IMG/VR virus record: IMGVR_UViG_3300048930_000441
Location: 1 to 31,961 of that record
DNA length: 31,961 nucleotides
Strand: one strand, 5' to 3'
Source of the DNA: a virus
The number at the start of each line of letters is the position of its first letter. The first letter of the stretch is position 1. A program made the translations under genes and the position numbers. Below are positions 1,472 through 30,637 of this stretch, piece after piece. The notes below the pieces were generated by a model. The model ran no database searches and had not been told where the DNA came from. It saw only the letters and a program-made list of their open reading frames with translations.

Positions 1472-1606
1472 GTGGCCGGGGAGTTTGAGCTATGCCCGAC
1501 ATGCGGGGTATCGGGTTCTGGGGCTTGGGTCTTAACCACTAGGTGGATACTGGTAACCACTAGATGGATAGGGGGAACCACTAGGTGGACGGGTGCGACC
1601 GCGTGA
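1472..1606 (+). CDS. Possible small CPTC protein with TTRW repeats, coupled to the helicase
   Basis: A 44-residue frame opens with GTG at 1472 and ends with TGA at 1604-1606, sharing its A with the ATG of the helicase (TGATG). It reads ELCPTCG, a zinc-knuckle half site, and then three copies of TTRW spaced 7 residues apart (TTRWILV, TTRWIGG, TTRWTGA), encoded by the 21-bp repeats. The stop/start overlap matches the coupling used throughout this phage, which argues that it is real. Against it: no clear Shine-Dalgarno before the GTG, and the repeats may exist for DNA binding. Unknown function. Confidence 0.4.
   Translation: MAGEFELCPTCGVSGSGAWVLTTRWILVTTRWIGGTTRWTGATA
1534..1591. repeat. Three 21-bp-spaced dyad repeats (iteron- or operator-like)
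   Basis: AACCACTAGGTGGATA occurs at 1534-1549, AACCACTAGATGGATA at 1555-1570 and AACCACTAGGTGGACG at 1576-1591: 13-16 of 16 bases shared, with a constant 21-base period, i.e. two helical turns. Each contains CCAC-TAG-GTGG (CCAC-TAG-ATGG in the middle copy), a small dyad. Three equally phased sites ahead of the helicase look like binding sites for a regulator or a replication initiator. They also encode the TTRW repeat of the small ORF at 1472. Confidence 0.65.
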
Positions 1607-3129
1607 TGGACGACCACGGTGTGGACGCGACCGCAGGGCGGACGGGGCTGACCCTCCGGCCGTACCAGTCGGCGGCGATTGCGGCGGTGACCGCGTCGCT
1701 GGCGGCTGGGCGGCGGCCGATCCTGCTGGCGCCGACGGGTGCCGGCAAGACGGTGCTCGCGGTGGCGCTGATGGTGGCGGCGCGGAACGCCGGGCGGCGG
1801 TCGCTGTTCATCGCGCCGCGGCGGGAGCTGGTGCTCCAGACGGTGGAGAAGCTGAAGGCGGCCGGCCTGCAGGCGGGGATCGTGATGGCCGGCGAGGCGC
1901 CGAGCCTGTACGCGCCGGTGCAGGTGGCGTCGATCCAGACGCTGCACGCCCGGCTGAAGCGGTCGCCGGCCGCGGCGCCGCGTGCCGACCTGGTGATCGT
2001 CGACGAGGCGCACCTGTCGATTGCGCCGTCGAGCCTGCAGGTGCTCGAGCAGTACCGGGACGCGTGGGTGGTGGGGCTGACGGCGACGCCGGCCCGCGGC
2101 GACGGACGGGCGCTGGGGCTGATCTACGACGAGATCGCGCCGGTGGCCTCGGTGGCGGAACTGACGGAGCAGGGCTACCTGTGCCCGGCGATCTACTACG
2201 CGCCGAGCAAGCCGGACCTGTCCGAAGTGCGGGTGCGGGCCGGTGACTACGCGCCCGACCAGCTGGAGCGGGTGATGAGCGCGCCGCAGCTGGTGGGCGA
2301 CATCGTGCAGCACTGGCACAAGCTGGCATCGGGCCGGCGCACGGTGGTGTTCGCGTCGGGCATCGAGCACTCCCAGTTCCTCTGCAACGCCTTCAACGAG
2401 AGCGGTGTGCGGGCCGAGCACGTTGACGCGGCGACGCCGGCCGCGGCCCGGGATGCTGTCTTCGACCGGTTTCGGTCGGGCGCGACGCAGGTACTGACCA
2501 ACTGTTTCCTGGCCTCCTACGGCTTCGACCTGCCCGACCTGTCGTGCGTGGTGCTGGCCCGGCCGACGAAGTCGCTGGTGCTCTACCTGCAGATGGTGGG
2601 GCGGGCGCTGCGGGCGGCGCCGGGCAAGACGGACGCCTTGATCCTCGATCACTCCGGGGCGGTGGACCTGCACGGGTTCGCGGATGAACTGCGGCCGTGG
2701 TCCCTGGACGGCGACGAGACGGTGCAGGAGCGGCACGAGCGGCTGAAGAAGGCCGACCCGCAGGCGAGCCGGGAGCAGAAGGCGCGGACGTGCGGTGACT
2801 GCCGGCACGTCTTCCGGGGTTCGCTGGCCTGCCCGAAGTGTGGCTGGCAGGTGCCGCGGCCGGCGAAGGCGGTGGAAGTCCTCGACGGCGAACTCGAGCG
2901 CCGCAACGGTGCGGCGCGGCTCGAGCAGCGCGCCCTGTTCGCGGAACTGCGGATGTACGGCTTCAGTCGGGGCTACAAGCCCGGCTGGGCGGCGCACCAG
3001 TTCAGCAAGCTGTTCGGCCGCTTCCCGCCGTGGGACTGGAACAACGACCAGATGCGGGTGCCGACGGCGACGACGGCCGGGAAGGTGAAGTACCTGCAGA
3101 TCCGTGCGGCGAAGGAGCGGGCGGCATGA
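1606..3129 (+). CDS. Superfamily 2 DEAD/DEAH-box helicase with zinc cluster
   Basis: This is an ATP-dependent DNA or RNA helicase of the phage early region, acting in the cytoplasm, probably in replication or recombination. From ATG 1606 (507 residues): LTLRPYQ near the N-terminus (Q motif-like), Walker A APTGAGKT at about 41-48, DEAH at about 131-134, TATPAR (motif III) near 158, and QMVGRALR (motif VI, arginine fingers) near 328. A four-cysteine cluster CGDC...CPKC at about 395-412 suggests zinc binding, and a basic C-terminal tail follows. I chose ATG 1606 because it overlaps the preceding TGA; GTG 1585, 7 codons upstream, is possible. It overlaps the next gene by ATGA. It is the only replication-type enzyme in the window, so the phage probably uses host polymerase. 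Confidence 0.88.
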   Translation: MDDHGVDATAGRTGLTLRPYQSAAIAAVTASLAAGRRPILLAPTGAGKTVLAVALMVAARNAGRRSLFIAPRRELVLQTVEKLKAAGLQAGIVMAGEAPSLYAPVQVASIQTLHARLKRSPAAAPRADLVIVDEAHLSIAPSSLQVLEQYRDAWVVGLTATPARGDGRALGLIYDEIAPVASVAELTEQGYLCPAIYYAPSKPDLSEVRVRAGDYAPDQLERVMSAPQLVGDIVQHWHKLASGRRTVVFASGIEHSQFLCNAFNESGVRAEHVDAATPAAARDAVFDRFRSGATQVLTNCFLASYGFDLPDLSCVVLARPTKSLVLYLQMVGRALRAAPGKTDALILDHSGAVDLHGFADELRPWSLDGDETVQERHERLKKADPQASREQKARTCGDCRHVFRGSLACPKCGWQVPRPAKAVEVLDGELERRNGAARLEQRALFAELRMYGFSRGYKPGWAAHQFSKLFGRFPPWDWNNDQMRVPTATTAGKVKYLQIRAAKERAA

Positions 3130-4579: not shown

Positions 4580-4812
4580 ACGTCCGCGCAGCAGCACGCA
4601 AGGCCGGCCTCAGCCCGCGGACGATCTACGCCCGGATGGAGGGCGGCATGACCCTCGAGCAGGCCCTCGAGGCCGTGGACCGGCGGACCCGCGAGCATCG
4701 CGGCCGGAAGCCCGTCTCCCGCGGCTACGTCTCGAGCCCGGAGGAATGGCGCGACGAGAAGAACGTGCCGCTGCGTAACCAGCTGCTGCGCTCGTGGGTG
4801 ACGCTGCTGTGA
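4576..4812 (+). CDS. Small helix-turn-helix early protein
   Basis: 78 residues from GTG 4576 (GTGA overlap with the microprotein frame). GTG 4570, two codons upstream, is an alternative. The N-terminal RAAARKAGLSPRTIYARMEGGMTLEQALE is the HTH pattern of short phage and homing-enzyme-associated DNA-binding proteins that specify recognition of a site. A basic, extended C-terminus follows (RGRKPVSRGY). It overlaps the HNH gene through GTGA at 4809. Confidence 0.6.
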   Translation: MNVRAAARKAGLSPRTIYARMEGGMTLEQALEAVDRRTREHRGRKPVSRGYVSSPEEWRDEKNVPLRNQLLRSWVTLL

Positions 4813-5519
4813 GCGAGCCCGTCGTCTACGAATGCACGCTGCTGAAGTGGAAGACCATGGCCGACGGGTCATGGCGTGCGGAAATCGACTTCGGCGATCT
4901 CGGCGGTGCGCCGAAGATCATGCCGCGGGAGCGGGTGGCCGTTGCGCTGCTCGGCCCGATCATCAACGGCGAGGCCGGGGACCCGCCTGCGGGCAACCCC
5001 CCCAGCCCACCCCCGGAGCAGGACATCGGTTCACGTCGTCCCGATGTTTCCCGGCCTCGCCACCCTTATGGCGCCTCCGCCCGGGAACTGAAGCTCTCCG
5101 GCTTCTGCCGCTCGCCCGACGTGTGGCGGGCGGTGGGCACGGACGAGGAGTTTTTGCGGTGGGTGCGGACCCAGCCGTGCGCTGCGCGGAGGTTCGGCCC
5201 ATGCGAGGGAGATGTGGTTGCGGCCCATGTTCGCAGGATCGCGAATGGCGCGGGAATGGGCGTGAAGCCGAAGGATTTTTCGGCTATCCCGTTATGTCAC
5301 AGGCACCACATGTTGCAGCATCAGCACGGCGAGGAGCGGCTGGCGCCGAAGGCCCAGTGGGACGAGTGGCGCATCCAGTACGTCGAGCAGTGGGCGTGGG
5401 AATCGCTGCGGAGCCTGCTGGGCTACGAGTCCATGGGCGACGTGCCGCCGGCCGTCCTGCACGCATGGGCCGAGACGCACGGCCTCGACCGCTACCTGCC
5501 GCTGGCGTATCGGCAGTGA
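4809..5519 (+). CDS. Ref/DUF968-like HNH nuclease with an N-terminal extra domain
   Basis: 236 residues from GTG 4809. Residues 1-55 form a separate small domain (ECTLLKWKTMADGSWRAEIDF) joined by a Pro/Gly-rich linker (GDPPAGNPPSPPPEQ) to the nuclease part. The latter has CAARRFGPCEGD, AHVRR, GMGVKPKDFSAIPLCHRHH and QHQHGEE, the cysteine/histidine order of the DUF968/Ref group of HNH-type proteins. P1 Ref is a RecA-dependent endonuclease used in phage recombination. A similar role here is inferred. Last gene of the early operon; the spacer after it carries the promoter-like element. Confidence 0.68.
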   Translation: MSEPVVYECTLLKWKTMADGSWRAEIDFGDLGGAPKIMPRERVAVALLGPIINGEAGDPPAGNPPSPPPEQDIGSRRPDVSRPRHPYGASARELKLSGFCRSPDVWRAVGTDEEFLRWVRTQPCAARRFGPCEGDVVAAHVRRIANGAGMGVKPKDFSAIPLCHRHHMLQHQHGEERLAPKAQWDEWRIQYVEQWAWESLRSLLGYESMGDVPPAVLHAWAETHGLDRYLPLAYRQ

Positions 5520-5994: not shown

Positions 5995-6264
5995 ATGAAA
6001 CACACGTCCTACGACCTGCGGAGTATGGGCGTGGCGGCTCTCCGCAAGGCGGGTGGCGTCGAGTATCTCGTGGCCGTGGCGAAGGAGCATCCGCCCGCAT
6101 TCATGGGCTTCCTCGCCAAGTGCATGCCGCGGGAGCTGAACATCGAGGCCGGGCCCACGCTGCTGGACGCGCTCAAGGTTGCTGCCGAGCGCCGCACCAC
6201 CATCGACGTGACGCCGCGGGCGGTGGACGCCATCGAGGTCATCGACCATGACCGACCTGCATGA
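5995..6264 (+). CDS. Small terminase subunit candidate
   Basis: 89 residues from ATG 5995, with AGGTCGG upstream as a weak ribosome binding site. The short helical protein (VAALRKAGGVEYLVAVAKEHPPAFMGFLAKCMPRE) lies directly before the large terminase and overlaps it by 17 bases, the usual place for the DNA-recognition subunit. T7 DNA maturase A (gp18) is of similar length. The assignment rests on position, size and the PPAFMGFLAK(C/V)xPRE-like motif found in many small terminase-like proteins, not on a detailed match. Met1-15 of the longer frame from 5950 is rejected as lacking a ribosome binding site. Confidence 0.6.
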   Translation: MKHTSYDLRSMGVAALRKAGGVEYLVAVAKEHPPAFMGFLAKCMPRELNIEAGPTLLDALKVAAERRTTIDVTPRAVDAIEVIDHDRPA

Positions 6265-8710
6265 CACGCTCGCCAGATGGACTGTTGATCCGCTGGCCTT
6301 CGTGGAGCAGGTTTTTCCGTGGGGCGAGGGCTCGCTGGCTGGCCGGCCAGGCCCGCACCCATGGCAGCGGGCTGAACTGCACGCCATCGCCCGGGCGATT
6401 CATGCCGGGCTGCAGTCGCGGCCCGAGGTGATCCGCCGGGCCATCACGTCGGGCCATGGCGTGGGCAAAGCTCTGGCCCATGGCGAGCCCGTCCTGACGC
6501 CGACTGGCTGGCGGCCCATCGAGTCCCTGCGGGTGGGCGACCAGGTGGTGGCGGTGGACGGCCGCCCGACGCGGGTCATCGGTGTGTTCCCGCAGGGTGA
6601 ACGTGACCTGTTCCGCGTGACCACGGACGACGGCGGCTCGGTGGTGGTGGACGGCGATCACCAGTGGCTCACCAGCAGCCGGAGCGAGCGGAAGCATGGC
6701 AAGCCCGCATCGGTTCGCACTACCCGCGAGATTGCCGAGTCCCTGACCTTCGCCAACGGCCCGACTCGCGGGCTCAACCACCAGCTACCGGCGCTGCGGC
6801 CTGTCGAGCACTCGCGGGCCATCCTGCCGGTCGAGCCATACTTGCTGGGTTGCTGGCTGGGCGACGGCGACAAGGTCGGCCGGCTCACTGGCATGCCGGA
6901 TGCTTTCGAGGCGCTGGCTGCTGCTGGCGCTGACCTTGGCCAGCCCTACGCGAAGCCGGGCAACCAAGCCGCTGCGAGGACCGCCATCGGCATCCGCCCG
7001 GGGCTGCGGGCCCTTGGCCTGCTCGGGCTGGGCTCGCATGAGCGGTTCATCCCGACCGTTTACCTGCATGCCGCCATCGACCAGCGGGAATCGCTGCTGC
7101 AGGGCCTGCTCGACACCGACGGGACCGCCCAGAAGAACGGCGCGGTGGCTTTCGAGGTCACATCCCAGCAGCTGGCCGATGGCGTCTGCGAGCTTGTTCG
7201 TTCGCTGGGCGGCGTCGTGCGCCGGTCAGAGAAGGTCGGGTCCTACAACGGCAAGCAGTGCCGCCGGGTATACCGGTGCTACATCAGCCTGCCGGCCGGC
7301 GTGCGGCCGTTCCGTCTGCCCCGGAAGGCGCAGCGGTATGCGCCGCAGTGGGGGGCGAAGAACTGCGACCGCACTCGCCGCCGTCACATCGCGTCGGTGG
7401 AGCCTGTCGGCCGCGGGCTGGCGACCTGTATCGCCGTCGATCATCCCTCCCGCCTGTTCGTGACCCGCGACCACATCGTCACGCACAACAGCGCAATAGT
7501 CGCCTGGATCATCCTCTGGGCGATGCTGCTGCCAGAGACTCGCGGCATTGTCACGGCCAACACCGAGACGCAGCTGCGGACCAAGACGTGGGCCGAGCTT
7601 GCGAAGTGGCACGCCATGCTGCCGCAGGGCTGGGACCTGACGGAACTCACCGCCACGGCCCTGCTGGGTCGCTCGAGCCCGCAGACCTGGCGCATTGACG
7701 CGGTGCCGTGGTCGCTGTCCAACACCGAGGCTTTCGCCGGCCTGCACAACGCCGGCAAGCGGATCCTCGTGGTGTACGACGAGGCCTCGGCCATCGACGA
7801 CCGCACCTGGGAGGTGACGGAAGGCGCCCTCACGGACGAGGACACGGAAATCCTCTGGGTGGCGTGCGGCAATCCCACGCGCTCGACGGGCCGGTTCTAC
7901 GACTGCGGCGGGCGGTTCCGGCATCGCTGGGCCGTCCGCACCGTCGATTCCCGGGAAGTCCCGGGCACCAACCGGGCGCAGATCGACCAGTGGGTGGCGG
8001 ACTACGGCGAGGACTCGGACTTCGTGCGGGTCCGGGTCCGTGGCCTGCCGCCGCGGGCGTCGGCGTCGGGCATGTTCGGCGCGGACCTCGTGGGCGAGGC
8101 GATGCGCCGCGAGCCGCACTGCTTTGCCGATGACCCGCTGGTCATGACGGTGGACGTGAGCCGCGGTGGGCAGGATGACAGCGTCATCGGCTTCCGCTGC
8201 GGCATGGATGCGCGGTCGGTGCCGTGGATCACCATTCCCGGGTCGGAGGTGCGCGACTCCATGCGGCTGGTGACGGCGGTCACTGACGCTGCCGTCCGCC
8301 TGAGTCCGGCGGCCATCATCGTGGACGAGACCGGCGTCGGCGGGCCCATCGTCGACCGCCTCACGCAGCTGGTGCCCATGCCGGTCTACGGCATCAACTT
8401 CGGCGCCAAGAGCGACGACCCGAAGCACGCCAACATGCGCATGACCATGTACTGGCGGCTGCGGGAAGCGATGCAGCGCGGCCTCGCCATCCCGAACGAC
8501 CCGCTGCTGGAGCGGGAACTGCTGGCCATCGAGTACCAGCACGACGCCCAGGACCGCATGCTGCTGATCCCGAAGGATCGCATGCGCAAGGACCTCGGCT
8601 TCAGCCCTGACCGCGCCGACGCACTGGCGCTGTCGTTCGCCGTACAGATTGCACCCGCGGCTGCCAGACCCGTGCGGGTGGTGGGCCGGGCGGGACGGAG
8701 CTACGCATGA
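6248..8710 (+). CDS. terL: Large terminase subunit, interrupted by an intein
   Basis: The precursor is 820 residues; removing the 340-residue intein (precursor residues 75-414) leaves 480, normal for a phage packaging ATPase/nuclease. Extein features: Walker A SGHGVGK at 68-74, completed by Ser415 after splicing; Walker B LVVYDEAS near 507-514; RuvC/RNase H-like nuclease with TVDVSRGGQDDSV near 633, IIVDETGVGG near 690 and RADALALSFAV near 788, giving the usual three acidic positions. It powers DNA translocation into the prohead at the portal and cuts concatemers. Because the intein splits the P-loop, the unspliced protein cannot bind ATP properly. It overlaps the small subunit upstream and the portal downstream (ATGA). 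Confidence 0.93.
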   Translation: MTDLHDTLARWTVDPLAFVEQVFPWGEGSLAGRPGPHPWQRAELHAIARAIHAGLQSRPEVIRRAITSGHGVGKALAHGEPVLTPTGWRPIESLRVGDQVVAVDGRPTRVIGVFPQGERDLFRVTTDDGGSVVVDGDHQWLTSSRSERKHGKPASVRTTREIAESLTFANGPTRGLNHQLPALRPVEHSRAILPVEPYLLGCWLGDGDKVGRLTGMPDAFEALAAAGADLGQPYAKPGNQAAARTAIGIRPGLRALGLLGLGSHERFIPTVYLHAAIDQRESLLQGLLDTDGTAQKNGAVAFEVTSQQLADGVCELVRSLGGVVRRSEKVGSYNGKQCRRVYRCYISLPAGVRPFRLPRKAQRYAPQWGAKNCDRTRRRHIASVEPVGRGLATCIAVDHPSRLFVTRDHIVTHNSAIVAWIILWAMLLPETRGIVTANTETQLRTKTWAELAKWHAMLPQGWDLTELTATALLGRSSPQTWRIDAVPWSLSNTEAFAGLHNAGKRILVVYDEASAIDDRTWEVTEGALTDEDTEILWVACGNPTRSTGRFYDCGGRFRHRWAVRTVDSREVPGTNRAQIDQWVADYGEDSDFVRVRVRGLPPRASASGMFGADLVGEAMRREPHCFADDPLVMTVDVSRGGQDDSVIGFRCGMDARSVPWITIPGSEVRDSMRLVTAVTDAAVRLSPAAIIVDETGVGGPIVDRLTQLVPMPVYGINFGAKSDDPKHANMRMTMYWRLREAMQRGLAIPNDPLLERELLAIEYQHDAQDRMLLIPKDRMRKDLGFSPDRADALALSFAVQIAPAAARPVRVVGRAGRSYA
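6470..7489 (+). other. Intein, class 3 type with LAGLIDADG endonuclease
   Basis: Boundaries: Lys-AAA at 6467 | Ala-GCT at 6470 ... Asn-AAC at 7487 | Ser-AGC at 7490; 340 residues. The first residue is Ala, not Cys or Ser. Block A is ALAHGEPVLTPTGW with VGDQVVAVDG after it. Block B is GGSVVVDGDHQWLT with His64 and Trp66 (B:12). Block F is CIAVDHPSRLFV with Cys320 (F:4). Block G is DHIVTHN with Thr338 (G:5) and terminal His-Asn, then Ser+1. Trp-Cys-Thr with a non-nucleophilic residue 1 is the signature of class 3 inteins, in which the internal Cys starts splicing. Two dodecapeptides, YLLGCWLGDGD (124-134) and LLQGLLDTDGT (209-219), indicate a homing endonuclease, apparently intact with both catalytic Asp. 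Confidence 0.92.
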
Positions 8711-29580: not shown

Positions 29581-29656
29581 GGGTCGGTAGCTCAGTCGGT
29601 AGAGCAGCGGGCTTTTAACTCGTTGGTCGTGGGTTCAAGTCCCACCCGACCCACCA
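29581..29656 (+). tRNA. tRNA-Lys (UUU), complete, CCA encoded; likely attachment site
   Basis: Acceptor stem GGGTCGG (29581-29587) pairs with CCGACCC (29646-29652), then A and CCA (29654-29656). D-arm AGCTCAGTCGGTAGAGC, anticodon loop CTTTTAA (anticodon TTT), T-loop GGTTCAAGTCC. All parts are intact. The integrase stop codon begins at the next base (29657). Phages with tyrosine integrases often insert at tRNA 3' ends, so the tRNA or its 3' half is probably the att core. Confidence 0.93.
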
Positions 29657-30637
29657 TCACCGCAGCGGCTTCACCTTCGCCGGGGCCCGCCGGTAATGCC
29701 TGTTGGTGACGGCCGGGCTGGAATGCCCCAGGCGCTCCACGGCGGCCTGTAGCGTGTCATCGCTGGCCGACTTGGCCCTGAGGTCGTGGAAGCGGAAAGG
29801 ATCGCTCAGGCCGGCTTTGCGGGCCTTCTGGATGGTGCGGTCCCACACCGTCGAGAACCCGTCCGGGGTGAACGGCGTGCCGGCCCGGGTGCAGAGCACC
29901 GTCCGGCGCACCTGGGGCGGGATGGCCTTGGCGGCCGCCACGACGGCGCGGAGTTCGTCCGACCACTCGACGAGCACCGCCTTGCCGGTCTTGGCCTGGC
30001 GGAACAGGATGCCGTCCTCGAGTAGCTGGTCCCGGGTCAGGGTCAGGAGGTCGCCCCGGCGCTGGCCGGTCAGCACGGCGAGGTCGATGGCGCAGCGGAC
30101 CATGGGGGAGGCGACGCCGCGCACGACGGCGAGCTCGTCGTCCGTCACGTAGCGGCTGCGCTGCTCGATCTCGAGGCGCTTGATGCCGGCCCCCGGGTTG
30201 TGGGGCATGGCGCCCCACTGGCGGCCCATGGCGCACAGGTGCTTGAAGACCTCGAGGGCCCGGTTGGCCTTCGTGAGCTTGCCCTTGGCGGCGATGGCGT
30301 CGCGGAACTCGTAGAGGTGGACGGGCAGGATGTCGGCCGGCTTCATGGTCCCGCAGTAGGCCTCGATGAGGGCGAGGTAGCGCAGGTGGTCGGCCTGCGT
30401 CCTGGGGGCCTTCTGGGGCACGACCTCCGCCCGGTAGCGGTGGATGAGGTCGGCCATCGTGCGGGCGTGCTCCGGGACTTCGAGCAGCCGGCCCAGGGCC
30501 CGGTACATGTCGCCCAGCGTGCGCCCCAGCGGCACCCACTTCCGGGTGCGGGGATCCTCCCAGTAGTAGGCGCCGTGCTTGAAGTAGACCCGGCGCGGCA
30601 GGTGCTTGTTGGTCTGGCGCGTGCGTCCCACAGCCAT
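29657..30637 (-). CDS. int: Tyrosine integrase
   Basis: 326 residues, read leftward toward the tRNA. An N-terminal SAM-like core-binding domain (about 58-150) is followed by the catalytic domain with Arg193 (TGQRRGDLL), a likely Lys216 or Lys219 (QAKTGK), His284 and Arg287 (FHDLRAKSA), His305 (LGHSSPAV) and the nucleophile Tyr315 (NRHYRR). It recombines attP with the host attB, probably the tRNA-Lys gene next to it, and also excises with the Xis-like partner. The Xis-like gene ends 4 bases upstream, so both are on one message. The end touching the tRNA shows little DNA is lost at the site. Confidence 0.93.
   Translation of the reverse strand: MAVGRTRQTNKHLPRRVYFKHGAYYWEDPRTRKWVPLGRTLGDMYRALGRLLEVPEHARTMADLIHRYRAEVVPQKAPRTQADHLRYLALIEAYCGTMKPADILPVHLYEFRDAIAAKGKLTKANRALEVFKHLCAMGRQWGAMPHNPGAGIKRLEIEQRSRYVTDDELAVVRGVASPMVRCAIDLAVLTGQRRGDLLTLTRDQLLEDGILFRQAKTGKAVLVEWSDELRAVVAAAKAIPPQVRRTVLCTRAGTPFTPDGFSTVWDRTIQKARKAGLSDPFRFHDLRAKSASDDTLQAAVERLGHSSPAVTNRHYRRAPAKVKPLR

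Follow-up and report, generated by a model that had tools for sequence, protein, structure and literature searches.

Class 3 inteins, a group that Tori and Perler reportedly extended in 2011, are the described systems closest to the element analysed here. The class 3 signature consists of Trp at B:12, Cys at F:4, Thr at G:5, His at B:10, His at G:6, Asn at G:7, and Ser, Cys, or Thr at +1; Cys F:4 was required in every class 3 intein tested, three of them (PMC5222942). The Msm DnaBi1 and MchDnaB1 inteins (6bs8, 6rix) have the Trp, Cys, and Thr (WCT) and the block B His, and are inserted in a P-loop with a +1 Ser (PMC6195587, PMC7664689). DnaBi1 also starts with Ala and has the block B DxxH motif (PMC6195587). 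In mycobacteriophages, the terminase large subunit (TerL) is the commonest intein host, class 3 inteins occur in it, and independent invasions are described (Kelley et al. 2016, PMC5050341, in part). One site described there, TerL1-a, lies between the P-loop Lys and Thr; that part of the paper does not state its class outright.

Two groups of phage TerL inteins are close comparisons. Like our locus, the TerL of phage Toto (JN006061) contains a class 3 WCT intein with Ala1 and LAGLIDADG motifs after the Lys of a GK pair, at RKNGK↓T (the arrow marks the insertion). However, Toto TerL belongs to a different TerL family and host, and the two inteins share about 36% identity. Salmonella phages 66FD, 65FD, and PAT1 (epsilon15-like, Uetakevirus) have a TerL homologous to ours. 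The 66FD intein interrupts its TerL between the same two codons (GHGIGK↓S) and shows the class 3 set A1, W, C, T, H, and N, but it is of another class 3 lineage (35% identity to ours). Its DNA is identical to that of the intein in one of the viral contigs we surveyed (L177). The 66FD record annotates the gene only as terminase large subunit.

We found a similar arrangement in the window, whose 31,961 bases are the whole of an IMG/VR virus record. Based on sequence and predicted structure, the Walker A Lys and Ser of a phage TerL are very probably (probability roughly 0.92) separated by a class 3 intein of full length that contains a LAGLIDADG homing endonuclease. The open reading frame at 6248-8710 (+ strand, as are all parts of it described here) encodes 820 amino acids and is open throughout. 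The N-extein (6248..6469, 74 amino acids) ends in the Walker A sequence ITSGHGVGK. The intein (6470..7489) is 340 amino acids long, from Ala1 to Asn340, and ends in RDHIVTHN. The C-extein (7490..8710, 406 amino acids) starts with Ser+1, which is the Walker A Ser, and continues as SAIVAWIILW. The original prediction had the insertion between Lys and Ser of GHGVGK↓S and an intein starting with Ala. Both points were confirmed: the joined junction aligns without gaps to natural empty sites, and codon 6470-6472 encodes Ala. Lack of Cys, Ser, or Thr at position 1 is a usual but not absolute class 3 trait. The gapless match between the joined junction and empty alleles rules out a chance or mis-called reading frame. 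A group I or group II intron is ruled out as well, as the frame is open throughout and the element ends in THN↓S. In tblastn, matches to relatives reached 5e-60, and the triplet is kept in about 120 homologues, well beyond chance.

By sequence, the host gene is a phage TerL. Its C-terminal part matches PHROG families phrog_5902 (2e-54) and phrog_2, terminase large subunit (8e-28). This part is also about 42-52% identical to TerLs of epsilon15-like and Pseudomonas phages (phage epsilon15 TerL, ~42%). Besides this homology, the protein has Walker A, a Walker B-like VVYDEAS, and the motifs of a nuclease domain, the latter two in the C-extein. The TerL motifs are intact, as is the structural gene module elsewhere in the window.

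Some other genes of the window were also noted. A tRNA-Lys gene (anticodon ttt, +) at 29581-29656 lies directly next to the 3' end of a gene for a tyrosine integrase (29657-30637, -). This junction is likely the attachment site, and so the phage is probably temperate. Upstream of terL, at 4794-5519, is a gene for an HNH/DUF968-type protein, which may be a free-standing endonuclease alongside the one in the intein. The PHROG match of a DNA helicase reading frame at 1585-3129 starts no earlier than position 269 of a 986-position profile; the N-terminal part of the helicase seems to be missing or outside the reading frame.

Assignment of the intein to class 3 is well supported by its sequence and predicted structure. 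The best sequence matches of its splicing domain are solved class 3 inteins, MchDnaB1 (6rix, 8e-11; also 6riy) and Msm DnaBi1 (6bs8, 2e-8). W66 is in register with Trp67 of Msm DnaBi1, C320 with Cys118, and T338-H339-N340 with Thr137-His138-Asn139 (numbering from PMC6195587). H64-Q-W66 aligns with H65-x-W67 of 6bs8, and C320 also aligns with Cys124 of 6rix. The N-terminal splicing subdomain, with blocks A and B (6470..6697, boundary approximate, from the 6bs8 and 6rix alignment), contains A1, W66 (B:12), and the DxxH of block B as D61-G-D-H64. The C-terminal subdomain, with blocks F and G (7382..7489), contains C320 (F:4; 7427-7429), T338 (G:5), H339, and N340. Thus every signature residue listed in PMC5222942 was found.

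The signature residues are nearly invariant among relatives. In an alignment of 124 related inteins, C320, H64, H339, and N340 were each present in all 124; T338 was kept in 122 and W66 in 120. Trp66, Cys320, and Thr338 had been predicted to be the class 3 triplet, and this reading is borne out by the register with solved class 3 inteins together with the conservation. The alignment to class 3 members that had been proposed as a check puts Cys320 and Trp66 at F:4 and B:12. Cys or Ser was found at position 1 in 11/124 sequences, so its absence is typical of the family but not universal. Five inteins (L099, L118, L135, L146, and L167) combine the class 3 triplet with Cys at position 1, a mixture of class 1 and class 3 signatures, and in two others (L160 and L168) Ser replaces Thr at G:5. 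For the window intein, class 1 is ruled out, as there is no nucleophile at position 1.

The predicted fold agrees with the assignment. An AlphaFold2 model of the intein (pLDDT 94.5, pTM 0.92; input alignment of 65 sequences, with three phage-collection rows left out) has a HINT domain and a LAGLIDADG endonuclease. Using VIA-align, the whole model superposed on PI-SceI with Z 27.0 (3.3 Å over 318 residues). The best match of the splicing domain was the Msm class 3 intein 6bs8 (Z 20.7, 1.3 Å over 123 residues), as a superposition of folds only. Class 1 inteins scored lower (gp41-1, Z 18.3; RecA, Z about 16). The comparison with a structural model that had been suggested thus places the splicing domain nearest to a class 3 structure.

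Unlike the Msm and Mch DnaB inteins, which are mini-inteins of ~140 amino acids without an endonuclease, the window intein has a LAGLIDADG region at 6836..7294 (outer limits approximate). In Pfam, Hom_end (3.4e-8) and LAGLIDADG_3 were over their cut-offs and Hint_2 (1.3e-4) was under its own. The endonuclease region is also covered by the PI-SceI match. As had been predicted, both catalytic Asp residues are kept, in the GDG of LLGCWLGDGDK (D132) and the TDG of LLQGLLDTDGT (D217).

Intein-free alleles, which the original prediction suggested looking for at this P-loop site, are common. Among the 80 best TerL relatives, all from viral contigs, 78 have an unbroken GHGxGK-S/T loop; the other two (L041 and L075) have an intein there. 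L015, the nearest empty allele in this set, shares 77% protein and 75% DNA identity with the window. Its alignment to the window has no gap across the joined junction, as a precise, removable insertion predicts.

We also searched for inteins at the same site with a DNA pattern that encodes THN↓S and, a fixed distance downstream, QLxTKTW. An intein ending in THN↓S was found at this TerL site in 48 further loci, 44 on viral contigs and 4 on bacterial genome contigs (Pseudescherichia, Citrobacter, Samsonia, and a MAG labelled Patescibacteria); some of these records duplicate others. Both junctions were visible in 41 of the 48. W, C, and T were in place in all 36 distinct same-site inteins entered in the alignment.

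The inteins at this site do not form a single group. In a quick maximum-likelihood tree of the 124 inteins, they fell into three: one of 29 sequences (100% support), one of 5 (100%), and the window intein with those of L192 and L206. The last two are the closest inteins found (each 56%, or about 55-56%, identical to the window intein), followed by L095 (50%). The window, L192, and L206 inteins join that of L095 with 98% SH-aLRT support. The host of the L095 intein is a TerL of a different family, interrupted at GRQVGK↓T, which indicates that this lineage moved between genes at an equivalent P-loop site. Parsimony on the site label gave three changes, at least two of which are required by branches with good support. 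With the set reduced to 51 sequences, forcing all same-site inteins together cost 51 log-likelihood units (p-AU 0.025). Two independent arrivals of class 3 lineages at this one TerL site are likely, and three are possible.

The pair L192 and L206 fits a recent transfer. Their inteins (L192:11552-12589 and L206:1567-2604) differ at 34 of 1038 bases (3.3%) and 6 amino acids, with dN 0.008, dS 0.106, and dN/dS about 0.075. In contrast, the C-exteins differ at 151 of 1200 bases (12.6%, dS 0.52) and the N-exteins at 36 of 240. Along the intein and over the 75 bases that precede it, identity stays at about 0.93-1.0; just downstream it falls to 0.75. This pattern fits an intein that recently moved between terL genes that had already diverged, together with some co-conversion, and it concerns the sister pair rather than the window copy.

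Based on these results and on the behaviour of the family, we suggest how the window intein would act. Once the protein is made, Cys320 would attack the bond between Lys(-1) and Ala1, with assistance from His64, Thr338, and Trp66, and form the block F branched thioester specific to the class. The N-extein would then pass to Ser+1, Asn340 would cyclise, and the exteins would be joined to restore GHGVGKS. The intein interrupts the Walker A loop, so a precursor with its ATP-binding loop split should not package DNA until it has spliced. In terL alleles that lack an intein, the endonuclease would be expected to cut the DNA at this codon pair, and the intein would then be copied in.

Several other readings were considered. 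The intein might use the class 2 route, with direct attack on the N-terminal junction by Ser+1 and no nucleophilic role for Cys320; class 2 inteins likewise lack Cys or Ser at position 1, and inteins with a class 3 signature could in principle take either route (PMC5222942). However, the near-invariance of Cys F:4, Trp B:12, and Thr G:5, the class 3 identity of the best matches in both sequence and fold, and the need for Cys F:4 in all class 3 inteins tested in that study make this route extremely improbable. It is very unlikely, too, that the intein is decaying and no longer splices, leaving a dead TerL in a defective prophage. The record is a fragment that comes without completeness data, but the reading frame is intact, the catalytic residues of both intein domains are all kept, and the predicted fold is complete and of high confidence. 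The TerL motifs and the structural gene module are likewise undamaged, and selection would act against a splice-dead copy that interrupts Walker A in an essential gene.

Besides being a parasite, the intein could act as a regulator: if splicing through Cys320 were slow or redox-sensitive, packaging would be held back until a late stage is reached or stress is signalled. With the insertion in the P-loop, packaging should hinge on splicing, and oxidation of the catalytic Cys pauses Msm DnaBi1, a class 3 intein that likewise sits in a P-loop (PMC6195587). Cys48, the redox partner in DnaBi1, is Leu47 in the window intein, although Cys320 itself could be oxidisable even without this partner. Most related TerLs have no intein, and so the gene does not need such regulation; selfish spread accounts for both the patchy occurrence and the tract shared by L192 and L206. 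We therefore consider a regulatory role unlikely. We give still less credence to the broader notion that splicing is conditional and sets the timing of packaging, or couples it to stress, in a temperate phage, and that repeated colonisation of the site reflects a tolerated or useful delay as well as homing. A class 3 intein that splices and spreads by homing remains our preferred reading.

The window intein is not of a new kind, since class 3 inteins in P-loops, including those of terminases, have already been published. Although well formed, it is an ordinary representative of a family widespread in phages and would not surprise an intein specialist. Our analysis adds an undescribed class 3 allele to a family in which an intein occupies the same TerL codon pair at 48 loci or more. 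Together, the apparent repeated occupation of that site, the jump into a second terminase family (L095), and the L192/L206 tract make a compact natural data set on the movement of class 3 inteins among phage P-loop ATPases.

We found that the hosts of this intein family are more varied than first thought. The original prediction named mainly DnaB and terminase proteins, which is too narrow. In our survey of viral contigs, the usual site is GK↓T/S in phage P-loop NTPases of diverse kinds, many of them helicase-like by sequence (assigned by eye), and hosts are sometimes portal-like or other non-ATPase proteins. Three class 3 inteins outside apparent P-loop ATPases, with hosts again judged by eye, are at L001:3001-4002, L003:3001-4017, and L011:2483-3520. 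The L001 host is probably a structural protein, with the insertion after QPGK; the L003 and L011 hosts are portal-like, and that of L011 is annotated as PhoH. In phage SPLA5c (OR413585; L009), the intein-containing gene is annotated as terminase large subunit; its exteins resemble a DNA helicase, and a related phage record calls the gene an ATP-dependent DNA helicase. Three PHROG terminase profiles that contain intein sequence (phrog_36964, 19299, and 15) match the intein part of the window reading frame, and profiles of this kind may have led to the SPLA5c annotation.
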